Below are positions 21,701 through 29,427 of a DNA stretch of 64,000 bases, in pieces. The notes under the pieces were generated by a model. The model made no database searches. It was not told the DNA's origin and saw only the letters and a list, made by a program, of their open reading frames with translations. The stretch spans positions 2,232,001 to 2,296,000 of the forward strand of contig OZ017748.1 in NCBI GenBank assembly GCA_963969365.1, written 5' to 3'. How positions within the stretch are numbered: position 1 is the stretch's first letter; each line of letters starts with the position of its first letter. This stretch comes from Asterochloris sp. CNOR1 (taxonomy: Eukaryota > Chlorophyta > Trebouxiophyceae > Trebouxiales > Trebouxiaceae). Both the position numbers and the translations under genes were made by a program.

Positions 21701-22297
21701 GCAGGCGCTCCACGCTGGGCTCCTGGTGCTGGAGGGGCAGGGGGTAGTGCACCCTGTAAACAGAGTGGGCAGCAGCCTTAACTCTCTGAGAGAGCGCAGG
21801 CATGGGAAGAGCAGCTATGACCTGGCCTCACCTATCAAATTCTGCAGCGTAGGTCAGAATGAGGTAGCGTTTGTTGTTGGGCGGGATGGTCTGCTGCAGA
21901 GGCGGATGGCCCGGGCCCCGCTTGCTCTTGAGCACCTCCAGGTCTGCGTAGGTCAGCAGGTCCACAAAGACGCTGTCTGAGCCCTGGCGTAGGGCTGCCA
22001 GCAGCATCTTGACAAAGACAGCGTACTTCTTGAAGTTGCCCGTTTTGGCTGTGATGTCCTCCACATCTGCACACAGCAGCAGACAGTCGATGGGCCACAT
22101 CTGGTGATGTCAGAGCAGCGAGAGTGCTTCCTGCTGCAGACCTGGACTGCAATGCTGCACTTACAGTGGGCACTGAACTCGCCACGCCATCTGGAGGCGT
22201 CATCGGCCTGCTCTACCTCAACACACAGGCGGTCCCCATGGACAGCTGTGACAACCTTGTAGCTGACGCCATGGAATGTCAGGTGCGCCTGCAGCAT
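18775..22297 (-). CDS. CCDC61: CCDC61 / VFL3 basal body protein
   Basis: Multi-exon gene with all signature parts of CCDC61, called VFL3 in Chlamydomonas. That protein is a SAS-6/XRCC4-like coiled-coil factor of basal bodies, needed for correct fibre arrangement and flagellar number. The head domain starts MLQAHLTFHGVSYKVVTAV (22297) and contains RWRGEF, EDITAKTGNFKKYAVFVKML (about 22070-22000), DLLTYADLEVLKSKR and KRYLILTYAAEFDR, then HYPLPL-like residues. A long coiled coil spans about 21750-20800. It is followed by an Arg/Ser/Pro-rich region, the conserved RFDPTEYVRQRHERDLL (about 19810-19755), and the terminal motif IADIDSRLQALQSFLKAAK, which aligns with the end of human CCDC61. The start is divergent from the dynein tail gene, 123 bp away. 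Confidence 0.93.
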
Positions 22298-22420
22298 GGT
22301 AGCATCACAAATGGGTGCAGTTCTCGTCTGCTGGGTGTCCAGGGTTGCACCATGTGCGCACCTCATCCTGGTCATCAAGACAGTCTTGTGAATCCTGAGA
22401 GTCCATGGCCACTGGTGTCA
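22298..22420. promoter_or_regulatory. short divergent promoter between two ciliary genes
   Basis: About 123 bp separate the VFL3 start from the proposed first ATG of the dynein tail gene. If the latter start is right, the two genes must share a promoter region. I did not find a convincing known ciliary element. Confidence 0.4.
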
Positions 22421-25400
22421 ATGCCTTGCCTGCATCCTTCAAACACTCAGTTCATGTGTTCTGCCGCACATCACATCGAATCAGTGATGTTCTTTGACCA
22501 GTCATGGTCGATCAACGCTGATTTCTTTGCACTTTGTGCAACGGGAGCCACAGGCTGCATTTCCAATGACAGTCCTGGAGACACAAAGCAGCAAGCAGTC
22601 TTTGCGCGCCCTGTCTGCGCAGAGAAGCCTGCAGTGGCCTCAGACGGTGATGGTGAGAGCTGCATGTTCCTCTTTGTTCCTGGTGACGACTTGCATTCCC
22701 CACAAGCCCACAACCTCATGCAGGCAGAAGCAGTTGGCGCCTACTTTGCTGAGCAGGGTCACATGGCCCCAGCAAAGCTGTTTCACTGCAGCAAGTGAGA
22801 CGCTGCAGTGATGCGACCAACAAGGCATGCACACACTCTGGGCGCCTGCCTGCTGACGCTCTCCAGCTTGATGCAGGGTGCCTGGGGGGGAGAGCTCCTT
22901 CGACCTGATCGCACACCCTGGCCAGAACCTGTCTGGGGAGCACTGGACAATCTCTGCTGCTGGAGTCTGCCACATTGAGGCCGATGGCGCTGCAGAATGC
23001 TTCCCCACAGGTGCTCTCCTTTTCATCATGCTGCACTGCACAGCCCTGTGCACATGTGCCATTGGCTGCCTTGCGTGCCACTGCAGCAAGCGACAGCAGC
23101 GGTGTCTCTGCAGGCCAGTGGCTCAAGGATGTGTCGATCTACCGCCTGCTGCGCCAGAAGAGGACGTTCCGGTCATGGCGCATGCACAAGCTGTTCAGGG
23201 CCTGGAGATGGGCCACCAAGCGTATACGCTTTGCCAAGGCACGTCCATGCTGTGTGTGTTGCTGAAGCTGAGAGGATCTGTTGCGCCTCTCAGCTGCACC
23301 TCATGGAGCAGCTGGACCTGTCATGCCAGCAGAGGATGCTGTGCTTGCGTGTGCGTTGAGCTCACCTGTTTACTGTCCTGCTGTGCAGGTGCAGATCCAG
23401 TTTGCAGCTCGCAGCCACCTCGCACGGCCGGCCTTCCTGCGCGTGCTTCAGCAGGTGTGGGCGATGCTGAGCGAGATGTCCAAGACATCCTTGGTCGAGG
23501 TGCAGGACGGCAAGATCTACAACCTACACGTGAGCTGGCTGATACAGAGGCGTTGCGTGAGGAGCTCCTGCTGCATGTCTCAGGATTGACCACTTCCTCC
23601 TTGCGAGTTGCTGCCGGCCTGCCATCTGCAATCAGCACTTGACAAAGCATTAAGCCTCTGTTCAGACTGTTCTTGTGAGCCTGCTGCCACTATGCTGTAG
23701 GGCTTGAGGGTATGTCTTTGAGGTGCCCGTGCTGCCCACGCGCCTGCCTGCCTTGCAGGACTTCACCCGCGAGCAGGCTGAGCACCTCAAGGTCATGGTG
23801 CAGCCTGTCCTGGACTCCAGTGTGCACCACATCACCACTGCCCTGCAGCAGTTTTGTCGCAGCCTTCGCGAGCAGGTGGGCCAGACTCTCAGCCTGCTGT
23901 AGCATGGGCGTGGCCATCAGCCTCCGCTGCCCAGCGCTCAATTCTCTGTTGAGCTGTCGTGGCCAAAAAGCACCATGCAGAACCAAACACTGTGCACTCC
24001 CGAATCAGCATGCTGAGCCTTTATTGCATTGCCTCCCGTGTTCAGGAGGCCTTGCCTCTACCCCTAAAGCGTCTGCAATGTGCATTTGCAACACTGAGCC
24101 TTTCTGCGTCCCTGTTATGGTGCAGGAAGCTTTGGTACGGCAGGAGGTCCTGAACTTTGACAAAGACCCCAGCGCAGGGGCCAGTCAAGGGCTGAGCAGT
24201 GTCAAAATGAGGCAGGAGCGCATGTTGAAGCAGCGCCAGCTGGCTGCCCTCTCCCAGGATGTGGCTGGCCTGCCTGTGCTGCTGCGGCTGGTGGATGTGA
24301 TGACTGCAGGCTCTGCAGTGGCGCTCCTGGGGGCGTCCATACATAGGCAAACACCCGCCCCGGGGGCTGACCACCCTTTTATGTGCCACACGTCAGGGCC
24401 TGCTCCAGTCTAGACACCTGGGCTGGGCTGCTTGGACCATGCTGGCACCCTGTGACTGACTGTGCTGTGCTGGTCACGTGACTCCTGTCACTTCCCTGGA
24501 CTGGCCACACAGGCCTGCTCTGAGATTGGAATGCTGTCTGTGCCTGCCAGCAGGCTTCGCAGTGAGCTGGAGGCCCTGGGCATGGTGTCAGTCCATGCCA
24601 GCGTGGACACTGAGGCCGTCCACTTCGCCCCTGACGACAAGCAGATCATCCAGGTCAGGCTGTCTCAAGCTCCCCCTGCATTGCTCAGAAGCGTGCCGCC
24701 TGCCAAAGCCAAGCCGCAGCAGCTGCCCCAGTCTGAGCCGTGCCTGCATGCTGCTGTCGAGCCTTGTCAGAGTGCGTTGCTGGATGCATGGCATGGCGGG
24801 GCTCATCTGCGCCTGCCGCTGCAGATGCTGACCGCCAAGGTGCTGGCTGGTGGAGGGCACTGATTGCGCTCCTGCAGGACTCACACCTGCATTCTGCTGC
24901 AGACGCTGGCGCCTATGGTTGTGGATAGGAGACCGCCCTGTCAATGTTGCCTGCCAAAATCCCCCCAAACTGCTGATGCTGCTGCAGATGCTGAGCGCTG
25001 AGGTGCTGGACGGGATGGTGAACATCGTGCGCAGGATGCCACGCATCCTCGCAGATGAGGAGCTGGCTGCTGCCTGGGGCCCTGTCACGCCCCTGGGGCA
25101 GCAGGGGGCCCTGCGCAAGGCCAAGGGGGCTGACATTGCGGGCATGGTGCAGGCCAGCGACGCCATCAACATGTGCAGGTGAGGGGTGGCAGATCGCTGT
25201 CACAGCTGTGTGGGCACCAGCAAGAGCATCGAGTGGTGTTCTGCATGGAGTGCTGCGAGTCAAGGTGGGCGTCACACCATGACGGCGCCTGGCCCATCTG
25301 CTAACAGGATCTGTTGTATTCAGAGCTGGTTCAGAGCTGCCTGCATTGAGGTCATGTTGAAGCAGCTGTGCAGCGGACCCCTTGCAGGGTTGTTTCTGCC

Positions 25401-28280
25401 ACCCTTGCCACTTCTCACATAGCTGTGCAGCAGAGCTGCAGCCGTGATGGTCTGGCGGCACAGCCAGCTTCCGATGCTTGTTGCCCATCGGCATGACATG
25501 CCTGTCTGTGTGTCCACAGGCTAAAGTGCAGCCAGGCGGTGATGAGGGGATACCAGCAAGTGCTGACCCACCGCGAGGCCCTGGCCCAGCTGCAGCCAGT
25601 GGCTTGGCTGGCCACCAGTTTTGATGCAGACGCTTATGCAGCGGGAGCGCACTCACTGGGGCAAGTGCGGCAGGACATCCTGCTGCTGAGGTACTCCCCG
25701 TGTTTCCTGGTCTACAGCTGTGTGCTGTCCATGCAGGCAGCTTGGCAGGTGCCCTGCCCAGGCGAGCAATGCCTTGCTAGCATCCATCTGTGCAGCTGTT
25801 CGTGAGCCATTAGCATGATTATGCACCTTCCTGTTTTTCCCCTGCATGAGGCAGTGCCTGCTAGCCTCATTCCGTGCAGCCATATGCTTGCCTTTAGCAT
25901 GACTCTGTGTGCCCAGCCATGAGCACCTGCATGGCGTCATGCAGGCAGTGGCAGTCAGACATCGCAAAAATGCCCCAGAACACACAGGCGGCCCCTCTGG
26001 TGCTCAGCACCACAGGCATGCAGCAGCAGCTGTCGGGGGCAGTGGAGCTGGCGCTGGCGACCCTGCAGGGCCTGCTGGGGGACACAGTGGCCCAGCGATG
26101 TGACGCTGAGCTGCAGCAGCGCAGGCAGACGCTCAAGTGAGGGATGCAAGGGTTCGGGTGCACGTTCACAACAGCTGCTTACACCCAGCAAGGGTGTGGT
26201 GCCACGGCAGCAACATGTTACCCCTGCTTTAGCTTGTTCTGCTTGAAACCATGCCTGGCCCACACAGCCTGCGGCATTGGGGCAAATACAGCCTCGGGTG
26301 TACGACCCATGACGCATGGCCCACCATGCAGGCGGCTGAAGCACCATCCCACCAAGCTGGAGGAATTCTGCGCCTGGTATGCAGTGTTCCAGGAAACGCG
26401 GCGCCAGCAGACTGCTGCAGCTGCCAGCTGCGCAGCCGTCATGGACCTGCATGAGATGTACCAGGCGCTGGGTGGCCGGCCAGGCCCCGACCTTCAGGAG
26501 CACATCGATGAGCTGAGGGAGGAGGTGGCAGGCTTCCCAAAGGTGCGGCACCGCTGCATCTGGCCCTTTAGCAGGGATTGTGCAATCGTGTCCCCTTGGC
26601 ATGGCCAGTCCTGATTCGTCAGCTGGCTGCACGAGTGGTGCTGCTCACGAGAAGAAGGCATGAGGCAGGGCTGCACAGTCCTTGAGGGGGATGTCTGGGT
26701 GCAGACAGCATGTGCATGCAGGCACATGTGGGCAGCAGCGCCCGCTCTGCTTGGCTACAGGTGGTGGCAGAGTCAACCATGTTCCTGGAGGAGCGCCGCA
26801 CAGGCATGATGACTGTGCTGGAGCGCAGCCTGGCCGAAGTCAGCCAGGAGCTGCAGGTCAGCGGGGCCCCTGTTCCAGAATCTTGTGGAGAGTTGTCTGT
26901 ACGCACCTTTCTGGGTGGTTGGACACACGCCCACAATGCGCCCCTGAGCTGGCTTCTGCCGGCCACGCTCTGAGTAGTCTGGTCAACAGCCTGATGACCA
27001 GGACTACTTGATAGCCCGTGCACCTTGGTGTGAGACAGACCCAGCACTCGTGAGCTGAGACACACTTATCTGTCCTGTGCAGCACCTTTTGGTGGAGGCG
27101 CGGTCAGCAGTCTACTACAGTGCAAGCCAGCCGCCGGCAGAGGTGCTCAGCCAGCTGCAAACGCTCGCCGGCAACCTGGACACTGCAGTTGACCGGGCAA
27201 AGAAGCTGGCCAAGTGCCAGCAGGACTTTGATCTCACCCCAGACGGGTTTCCCATTGTTCAAGACATCGCGAGGTGGGCTCTGTAATCCCTGACAGTCAC
27301 ACAGGCCATGGCATGGTAGGGCTTCCCCTGACTTGTACCAGTGCACATACCGGCGACATTGGCTGCCTGCGGCCCAATCGCTGTGCCAGACGGGTGCCTG
27401 CTTACAGCTGCCGGCGGCGGTCTGAAGCGCAACATGTCAAGCACTGCTCTCAGCCCGAGGCTGATGAAAGACTCTGCTGGCTGCAGGGCCATTGACACAC
27501 ACAGGTTGCGCTGGGAATGCCTGGCAGATGTGCAGGAGGCTCATGCATCGGTCATGCGAACCCCCTGGAATAAGATCAGTGGCATCAAGGCCCAGGAAGA
27601 CATGGACAGCCTGCGGGCCAGGCTGCAGCAGCTCCCAGTCTCTGGTGGAGCGGTGTGTTTACCCCCTCTCTTGACATTACAACTGTTGGTCAGTGCGCTG
27701 CTGCCTGACAAGTTCCACCATCTGTAGATGTTGCCCATGCAGGACGACAGGCTGCTGCAGCTCATTGAGGAGGAAGTGAAAGCCTGCGAGGCAGCCATGC
27801 CATTTGTGCAGCTGTTTGATGCTAGCACAGCCACTGCTGAGCAATGGAAAACGGTGAGACCGCCACATGCTGGCTCTGAAAGTGCTGGATTCCAGCTGTT
27901 TTCATCATTCATGTGGCACACACTTCTGCAGGTGTGCAGTTTGCTTCCAGACAGAGCAACTGACGATGAGGCCATGTGGTGCTTGGGGACCCTGAAGCAG
28001 CAGGGCGCCTTGCAGAGCCTTGAACAGGTACGCTCTTTTGCTCATTGATCTGTCTGCTTTCCCTGATTTGTTGCGTCTCTGTCTGGGCAATGCTTGAGTG
28101 TGAGCTTGCTTGCTGGTGCAGCTGAAAGAGGTGCTGGCAGGCAGGAGCAGCGCATTTCTGTCAGTCATGCAGCGTTCCAGTTCTCAGGCAGCGGGCTGGG
28201 ACACACAGGAGCAGCAGCCTGACTCCAGCTGGGATGCAGCTGCTCACAGCTATGTAGCCCCTGCCAGCAATGCAAGGTAG
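22421..28280 (+). CDS. axonemal-type dynein heavy chain tail, no motor domain
   Basis: At least 16 exons encode the N-terminal stem of a DNAH-type dynein heavy chain. Recognisable parts: HWTISAAGVCHIEADG (about 22940-22985), the Trp/Arg-rich RTFRSWRMHKLFRAWRWATK (23161-23220), FTREQAEHLKVMVQPVLDSS (about 23763-23820), stem helices through 26540, VVAESTMFLEERRTGMMTVLE (about 26760-26820), and the start of the linker: LRWECLADVQEAHASVMRTPW (about 27500-27560), then PFVQLFDASTATAEQWKTV where motors normally carry the LRN-x-RHW motif. The model ends with an unrelated Ser/Gln-rich tail and a TAG at 28278-28280. No AAA+ module or P-loop is found downstream, and an antisense gene begins 47 bp later. 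The start is tentative. It may be a truncated but expressed stem protein or a decaying gene; exons and splice sites look intact up to the stop. Confidence 0.83.
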
Positions 28281-28326
28281 TTGCTGCAGCCCTGCCAGCC
28301 TGCCCCGGAAACCTCGATGCAAATCG

Positions 28327-29334
28327 TCAGGACTGTTTGTCAGCCTGCGCTTGGTCAGGTGCCTTTTGGCCTAAATGATGCAGCTGCTGCTGCTGTGCTC
28401 TTCTCTGCACCACCTCCTCTGCCCAGGCTCTGCCGGTGTTGGTTTTGAATTTTCCGTGCGTTGAGTCGAAGAAATCCTGCAGCCCGATGCCCTGCTCCTG
28501 CTCATATTCTGAGGCTTGAAGAATCATCTCAATCTGCAGCAGGACAAGTTGCTCAGAGACCTGTAGCATGGAGGTTATCTGGGTGACCTACAGCCTCAGC
28601 TAACCTTATCAATGTCCTTGAGAAGCTGAGCCTCCTCTGTGGAACCCTGTTCATACTCCTGCCAGAGGTCCTGCAGCTCCTGCCCTGCATGAAACAGCCA
28701 AGCAGCACATTGCGACCGCCATGCATCTCTGCAGCCAGCGTTTAGCAGCTTTGGCTATACACTGCTCAACAGGCTGGCCCACCTATAGGGCTGTCATTGC
28801 CAAGGATGCCACCAATGTGGTGCATAGCTTCGAATTCCCGCCGATTCTTCTCAGCCTTGCTGACATTGTCGCTGGGGGCAATGTCGCCGACAATGGCTGT
28901 GACAGCAGGGCAGCGACTCAGAAAACAGACACCCTCCAGGCAAGCCGCAGAGTCTGATGCAGGGCGCTCCTACCCTCTGCCAGGTCATGTACAATGGCCA
29001 GCTTTATGCACCTGCACCAGGCAGTGGGCATATGATCCACTTCAGAAGAACTCAGTCACTCACAGGCATGCTGAGGGCTACCTGTCCCGATTCATATGGC
29101 TGGGGGCCAGCATGGCCATCATGGCCATGCGATACATGTGATCTGCAATGCTCTCAGGGCTTTTCACACCACTCCTGACCCATCCAGTCCTCTTGGTGAG
29201 CTGCACATTGCACGGGCAAGTGTTGCAGCATTACAAAGAGGCGCATGGTGCTGTCAAAAGTAACTTGCCTTGAGGTTCTGCACCAACTTGAAGAAATCAA
29301 TAGCTTGGGACGGCTGCACAGGGACAGGAGGCAT
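28327..29334 (-). CDS. HDDC2: HDDC2-type 5'-deoxynucleotidase, HD domain
   Basis: The first exon (29334-29269) reads [20 protein letters not shown]. It is followed by [20 protein letters not shown] (29191-29082), LAIVHDLAE (about 29000), [20 protein letters not shown] (about 28890-28830), [31 protein letters not shown], and the last exon with [20 protein letters not shown] and [11 protein letters not shown]. These match HDDC2/YfbR. The metal-binding His of the first motif, the HD pair and the later Asp of the DIDK segment are present. The family hydrolyses deoxyribonucleoside 5'-monophosphates and so trims the dNTP pool. Intron 1 seems to use a GC donor (CTCAAG|GCAAGT), as the codon-exact join to RTGW shows. 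Divergent from the FIRRM-like gene. Confidence 0.93.
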
Positions 29335-29427
29335 GCTGTTTGGGGGCGAAGATGTTTTGGTGTTGACCCTAACTCCGAGGTGCAGATCTTGACTGGTTCA
29401 GATCACAGCCCGGCTGCGTCCGAGAAG
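29335..29427. promoter_or_regulatory. 93-bp bidirectional promoter HDDC2 / FIRRM-like
   Basis: Ninety-three bases separate the two outward-facing start codons. No known motif was recognised. Confidence 0.5.

Follow-up and report, generated by a model that had tools for sequence, protein, structure and literature searches.

What does a dynein heavy chain gene do once it ends before its motor? The question matters since it touches an open one, namely why cilia have six different single-headed inner arms, and whether a given arm is required for its motor or for its place in the scaffold. Work in Chlamydomonas points to the tail and the MBO2 complex as more important for dynein b than its motor (PMC11151096). 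Had a natural genome lost the motor of the dynein b heavy chain, DHC5, and kept its tail, evolution would have put that idea to an independent test. Here, we analyse a candidate from the green alga Asterochloris sp. CNOR1, in a stretch of 64,000 nucleotides (the window; GC content 55-67% in 2-kb bins) on contig 3 of an assembly of 56.4 Mb in 21 contigs. The window carries an intact spliced frame for a DHC5-like tail that ends at the start of the linker, and none of the 12 dynein motor loci in the assembly supplies a matching motor. With moderate confidence, we read the gene as a DHC5-type (inner-arm dynein b) heavy chain that was reduced to its tail and is kept as a docking or structural element.

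The stem gene occupies positions 22487-28280 of the plus strand in a spliced model supported by homology to chains in the Protein Data Bank (PDB), the closest being chain Me of entry 8glv, a Chlamydomonas axoneme model (PMC12338079; original work PMC10266980). The model comprises 17 exons and 16 introns (14 GT-AG and two GC-AG). Exon 1 (22487-22794) provides the modelled methionine and the N terminus, and its final 30 or so residues align to Me from residue 117; its frame stays open farther upstream, so that the exact start codon is uncertain, and the modelled start replaces the position 22421 of the original prediction. The tail continues through exon 2 (22877-23010, with the segment EHWTISAAGV), the Trp/Arg-rich exon 3 (23114-23238) and exons 4 (23389-23529), 5 (23759-23875) and 6 (24126-24346), of which exons 2, 4 and 5 are backed by phmmer, exon 2 also by a splice-aware alignment to pieces of Me, and exons 3 and 6 by alignment. 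That splice-aware alignment likewise supports exons 7 (24554-24653), 8 (24988-25178), 9 (25520-25690), 10 (25945-26136), 11 (26332-26542, the top-scoring exon against the stem profile), 12 (26761-26856) and 13 (27083-27273). The linker region begins in exon 14 (27487-27652), and the linker start extends over exons 15 (27743-27853) and 16 (27932-28027), both matched by Pfam and phmmer, into exon 17 (28122-28280). This last exon, also reached by phmmer, holds the final linker-like residues, then about 36 residues rich in Ser and Gln (seven and five, respectively) that have no aligned counterpart, and the TAG stop codon at 28278-28280, just as had been predicted.

Of the 15 introns that the splice-aware alignment places, 11 agree with the model on both sides; the last two introns are not reached, and alignment and model differ around exons 4 and 5 (at the end of the former and at both ends of the latter) and inside exon 8. 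The product has 903 residues, or 909 with the alternative acceptor before 27487 (six residues more), which the alignment favours for exon 14, an acceptor before 27505 being possible. In-frame GT donors seen by eye a few codons 3' of the two GC donors leave it uncertain where exons 3 and 6 end, as the former could extend by 15 bases beyond 23238 and the latter by 36 or 45 beyond 24346. By eye, we also noticed in intron 7 a short stretch that nearly repeats the first bases of exon 8 together with the acceptor (24826-24864 versus 24988-25026); it sits roughly 160 bases upstream of exon 8 and runs into a stop.

The gene is tightly enclosed by its neighbours. Downstream lies, tail to tail on the minus strand, an HD-domain gene (28327-29397, stop codon 28329-28327, 5' end approximate), which we take to be of the HDDC2 type; one of its exons matches HD_3 with an E value of 4e-12, and another falls short of the cut-off (E 0.0011). 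The antisense gene had thus been correctly foreseen, although the two stop codons are 46 bp apart and not 47. No TGTAA occurs 3' of the stem gene within 28241-28900, the DNA of its 3' tail occurs once in the genome and the plus-strand gene beyond the HD-domain gene has no Pfam match. Upstream, the first exons of a CCDC61/VFL3-type gene lie head to head with the stem gene on the minus strand (21828-22300, ends approximate), with about 190 bp between the modelled start codons. These exons have no match in Pfam or NCBIfam and owe their name to the PDB search (6hxt, E 1e-35). CCDC61/VFL3 is a basal-body protein, and with this head-to-head arrangement the basal-body gene and the dynein tail may therefore have one short, ciliary promoter in common.

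Is the product a dynein tail, and of which type? In a phmmer search against the PDB, its best match is Me (E 1.5e-65, 225 bits), aligned from residue 117 to about residue 1001, followed by chains Mm (E 1.5e-44, 156 bits) and Fm (46 bits) of the same entry. At E values up to 1, eight distinct sequences are matched, all chains of roughly 4100-4250 residues, which their depositors name dynein heavy chain (five) or AAA+ ATPase domain-containing protein (three, from 8glv); these matches are not chance. Pfam recognizes the linker only in part, as profile positions 15-136 of the 403 of DHC_N2 at 26.2 bits, below the curated cut-off of 31.9, and its only other match is a weak one to TBCC_N (E 0.014). 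The product, at either length, stops short of the stalk and the microtubule-binding domain. A dynein tail up to the start of the linker was what the original prediction described, and that part stands; 'well preserved' it is not, at 26-28% identity to Me and on a long branch (see below), and we prefer to call it a recognizable tail.

The name of the type hangs on a length. Me has 4185 residues, the length that a published table lists for DHC5 of inner-arm dynein b (PMC11151096), and this agreement is the sole link by which we equate Me with Chlamydomonas DHC5. By the same kind of inference Fm would be dynein g (DHC7), with best matches in common with human DNAH6, while chain Lc is labelled DHC2. 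A tree of seven stems (those of the window, Me, Mm, Fm, a paralogue from the same genome that we call locus F, and two kinetoplastid rows) pairs the window with Me (98/98) and F with Mm (99/99); the program warns of long branches and of a deviating residue composition in the window row. The window-Me pair is retained without Fm (99/98) and loses its resolution without the two kinetoplastid rows; taken by thirds, it holds for the middle (87/91) and the end (87/90) and not for the N-terminal third. The best tree that places the window outside Me, Mm and F has a p-AU of 0.0099. The stem is thus probably homologous to the tail of DHC5, with weaker support in these subsets of rows and thirds.

The stem may instead originate from a minor dynein of the DHC4, DHC11 or DHC12 type, or from an ancestor common to these and DHC5, and would then be a tail-only dynein under a different name. 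These chains exist as minor inner-arm dyneins, and neither for the stem nor for the six motors compared below do the PDB lists contain a fitting chain for them or for DHC3, so that they were unable to compete as best match. Me nevertheless outscores every other chain found, and the genome has motors for the five other major single-headed types as well as a second DNAH6-like one, which leads us to consider a minor-dynein origin unlikely. In the genome, 17 of the 18 matches to the stem are the locus itself and the remaining, weak one is locus F; there is no second copy.

We then need to know where the motor is. Genome-wide profile searches, which score best candidates only, returned 77 matches for AAA_6, 50 for AAA_9, 23 for AAA_lid_11 and 61 for DHC_N2, all at the identical 12 loci, none of which lies in the window. 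With fragments of the 12 motors as queries, tblastn found no motor remnant in the window (best E 0.27) and nothing at an E value of 0.01 in 30 kb of flank. The original prediction that no AAA+ module follows the stem is borne out. As the motor that defines the family is absent, we do not file the stem as a dynein motor, despite its descent from a dynein heavy chain.

In a tree of the AAA1 domains of all 12 loci, six (B, D, F, H, J and L) form one cluster (95/95) and the other six fall outside. Against the PDB, AAA1 of B and J matches Fm best (522 and 450 bits), that of H the DHC2 chain Lc (521), that of L chain Kg (509), that of F chain Mm (498, with Me at 455) and that of D chain JG (470, with Me at 400). 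Outside this single-headed cluster, DHC_N1 is present in four of the six loci, and locus I carries the motif NPAGKGYGGRSKLPDN, which we presume to be that of IFT dynein. The Chlamydomonas 96-nm repeat has six single-headed chains; five of them hence have motor-bearing counterparts here, among them Mm with locus F (C7:1967-1995 kb), and for Me there is the stem only. Locus J (G000:C9:1007-1034 kb), which joins B as a DNAH6/DHC7-like single-headed dynein, is possibly a minor dynein of the DHC3 type. A separate set of exons encoding the AAA+ ring of the same subgroup had been proposed as something to look for; judged by PDB best match for six loci and by the tree for all, none of the 12 motor loci of the assembly is of the Me type. 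With motors for the five other single-headed types and none for Me, the stem would be a DHC5-type tail whose motor is absent from the assembly.

A tail without a motor may simply be on its way out. The original prediction had offered early gene loss as one reading. In this scenario the motor is gone and the tail is an unneeded relic, perhaps still transcribed from a promoter that may be common to it and the CCDC61-type gene. Several observations fit: the end branch of the window in the stem tree is long (1.99, compared to 0.69 for Me and 0.22 for the paralogue F), identity to Me is about 27%, GC donors are modelled in 2 of the 16 introns, and loss of the DHC5 motor in the laboratory has no swimming phenotype, as described for Chlamydomonas (PMC11151096). 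Against it stand some 900 codons and 16 introns without a stop, a frameshift or a broken splice site, despite strong divergence. In a neutral simulation of substitutions alone, with 300 runs per level of amino-acid change, frames free of stops numbered 113 at 2%, 32 at 5%, 3 at 10% and none at 20%. The intact frame, the strong divergence and the simulation together indicate that most of the divergence arose while the frame was under selection, which may predate or postdate the loss of the motor. The simulation appears to argue against long neutrality, but the rate of change is high and, given the long end branch, constraint is probably weak.

The columns that are invariant in Me, Mm and F tell a similar story: the window keeps 73 of 170, comparable to distant rows that do bear a motor (Fm 60/138, 7C 62/170, 6c 66/163). 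We therefore disfavour a gene in the process of being lost, holding it to be a serious contender but an unlikely one. As a candidate pseudogene, the locus was rejected by its frame and splice sites: its 17 exons contain neither a stop nor a frameshift, and it was frameshifts in these exons that the original prediction had named as the sign of one. Third codon positions have a GC content of 0.735 in the stem coding sequence and 0.80 in the stem of F, and the introns of the stem gene one of 0.583 overall. Relatives of the stem for a dN/dS estimate were sought in scans of genome and viral contig collections, which gave one pattern match each and no relative.

Divergence may differ along the stem. 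Pairwise identities to Me are 85/295 for the window and 103/296 for F in the N-terminal part (Me 117-432), where the window does no better than F; 77/264 and 69/264 in the tail (Me 557-820); and 18/98 and 46/86 at the linker start (Me 901-1001), where Mm has 32/86, the tail and linker-start regions having been picked after the data were seen. A linker start so much poorer than the tail fits an old loss of the motor that released the part serving it, but is only suggestive. As proof of age, this apparent loss of motor-side constraint was set aside: of the invariant columns, the window keeps 62 of 133 in the tail and 11 of 37 in the linker-start region (Fisher p 0.09), and the orthologue pair F-Mm drops at the linker start likewise.

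Alternatively, the gene may be intact in the alga and cut in the assembly, the sequence having been wrongly joined near 28.2 kb and the motor part left out. Precedent for this comes from locus D, where a run of 200 N (G000:C4:1888946-1889145) lies immediately upstream of the motor, and neither the tail nor the first half of the linker of D was found in the assembly. We take this run for an assembly gap, and the assembly can thus be without part of a dynein gene. By eye, the open reading frames on the antisense strand upstream of the run have the look of a gene for an eIF2B-type subunit. The window, in contrast, contains no N, and the stem has a gene close by on either side. Some 3000 residues of motor would moreover have to vanish whole, the three motor families giving 12 loci only, and the linker start looks diverged, unlike that of a working motor, the paralogue F having kept far more of it. 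We regard an assembly error as improbable.

Locus D raises yet another scenario, in which the stem works with a motor encoded elsewhere, by trans-splicing or as two separate chains. D is a motor without a detectable stem in the assembly, and a donor-like site, AAG/GTAGTT, overlaps the stop codon of the stem gene. D is of the JG type, however, both in AAA1 and in its linker remnant (184 bits for JG versus 136 for Me), which is why we do not see D and the window stem as halves of one gene, and the N run accounts for its missing stem. No Me-type motor is left over as an orphan among the 12 loci, where the stems of A, C, E, G, I and K are not modelled, and for the use of 28276 as a donor towards distant motor exons, which the original prediction had named as grounds to abandon it, no target was found there. 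A split dynein is the scenario to which we give very little credence.

The preferred reading, a DHC5-type tail kept for docking, would work as follows. A past break inside the linker would have taken away the stalk, the AAA+ ring and what was left of the linker. In the Chlamydomonas axoneme, single-headed arms are anchored to the doublet through divergent N-terminal tails, accompanied by actin and either centrin or p28 (PMC10266980). The tail of the window gene would still be translated, fold with its actin and light-chain partners and dock where dynein b belongs, between radial spokes 1 and 2 and close to the MBO2/FAP58 complex. In that place it would serve docking and structure and generate no force, while each of the five other single-headed types still has a motor in the genome. 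Flagellated cells are known from the genus, Asterochloris glomerata being described with flagellated zoospores and gametes (PMC6652019). Our preference for a docking role draws on the Chlamydomonas dhc5 strains and the oda4-s7 and oda2-t mutants discussed below, and on a CFAP58-family gene in the genome (three exons above cut-off). The original prediction had a stem-only chain act in docking, and on this point we follow it, given the DHC5-like best match and the motor-less fragments in Chlamydomonas axonemes; its suggested intermediate-chain partners are probably not the right ones, because single-headed arms carry actin with centrin or p28 (PMC10266980).

That a motor was lost in nature and the heavy chain kept as a structural protein of the axoneme, an anchor for dynein b without force, we put at an even chance. 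Were this true, the target of selection at this position would be the tail together with its docking complex rather than motor activity, and were the gene a natural version of the motor-less mutants of the laboratory, the anchor itself would be worth keeping.

How does the gene compare with those systems? It resembles Chlamydomonas DHC5 (Me, by length) in tail sequence from Me residue 117 to about 1001 and as its partner in the tree, and differs in that Me, at full length, has AAA+ matches, whereas the window stem ends after the linker start with its unaligned residues. Besides itself, the stem matches the genome only at the paralogous locus F; unlike the stem, this locus has a tail 56% identical to Mm and then goes on into motor exons. 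In the literature searched, which covered few subscription journals, we found no natural tail-only or motorless dynein heavy chain; mutants of this kind are known from the laboratory. In oda4-s7 and oda2-t, outer-arm heavy chains are assembled with their own motor domain missing (PMC12338079); they are likewise heavy chains without a motor, although of the outer-arm beta and gamma types and from laboratory mutants. Closer are four Chlamydomonas strains, dhc5-264, -298, -438 and -953, whose insertions fall in the 5' portion of the gene and which swim at wild-type speed and show tail-sized fragments and no motor on axoneme blots (PMC11151096). Their authors hold the contact of dynein b with MBO2-associated proteins to be more critical than the motor; the structural phenotype is entered there as 'Not analyzed', the fragments being known from blots and the dynein b position of the tails not having been imaged (PMC11151096). 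These strains share with the Asterochloris gene a motor-less tail of the same heavy chain, found on axonemes in their case, and differ from it in that their mutations were induced in the laboratory, whereas in Asterochloris the assembled genome itself has the gene in truncated form. The window gene looks like their natural counterpart.
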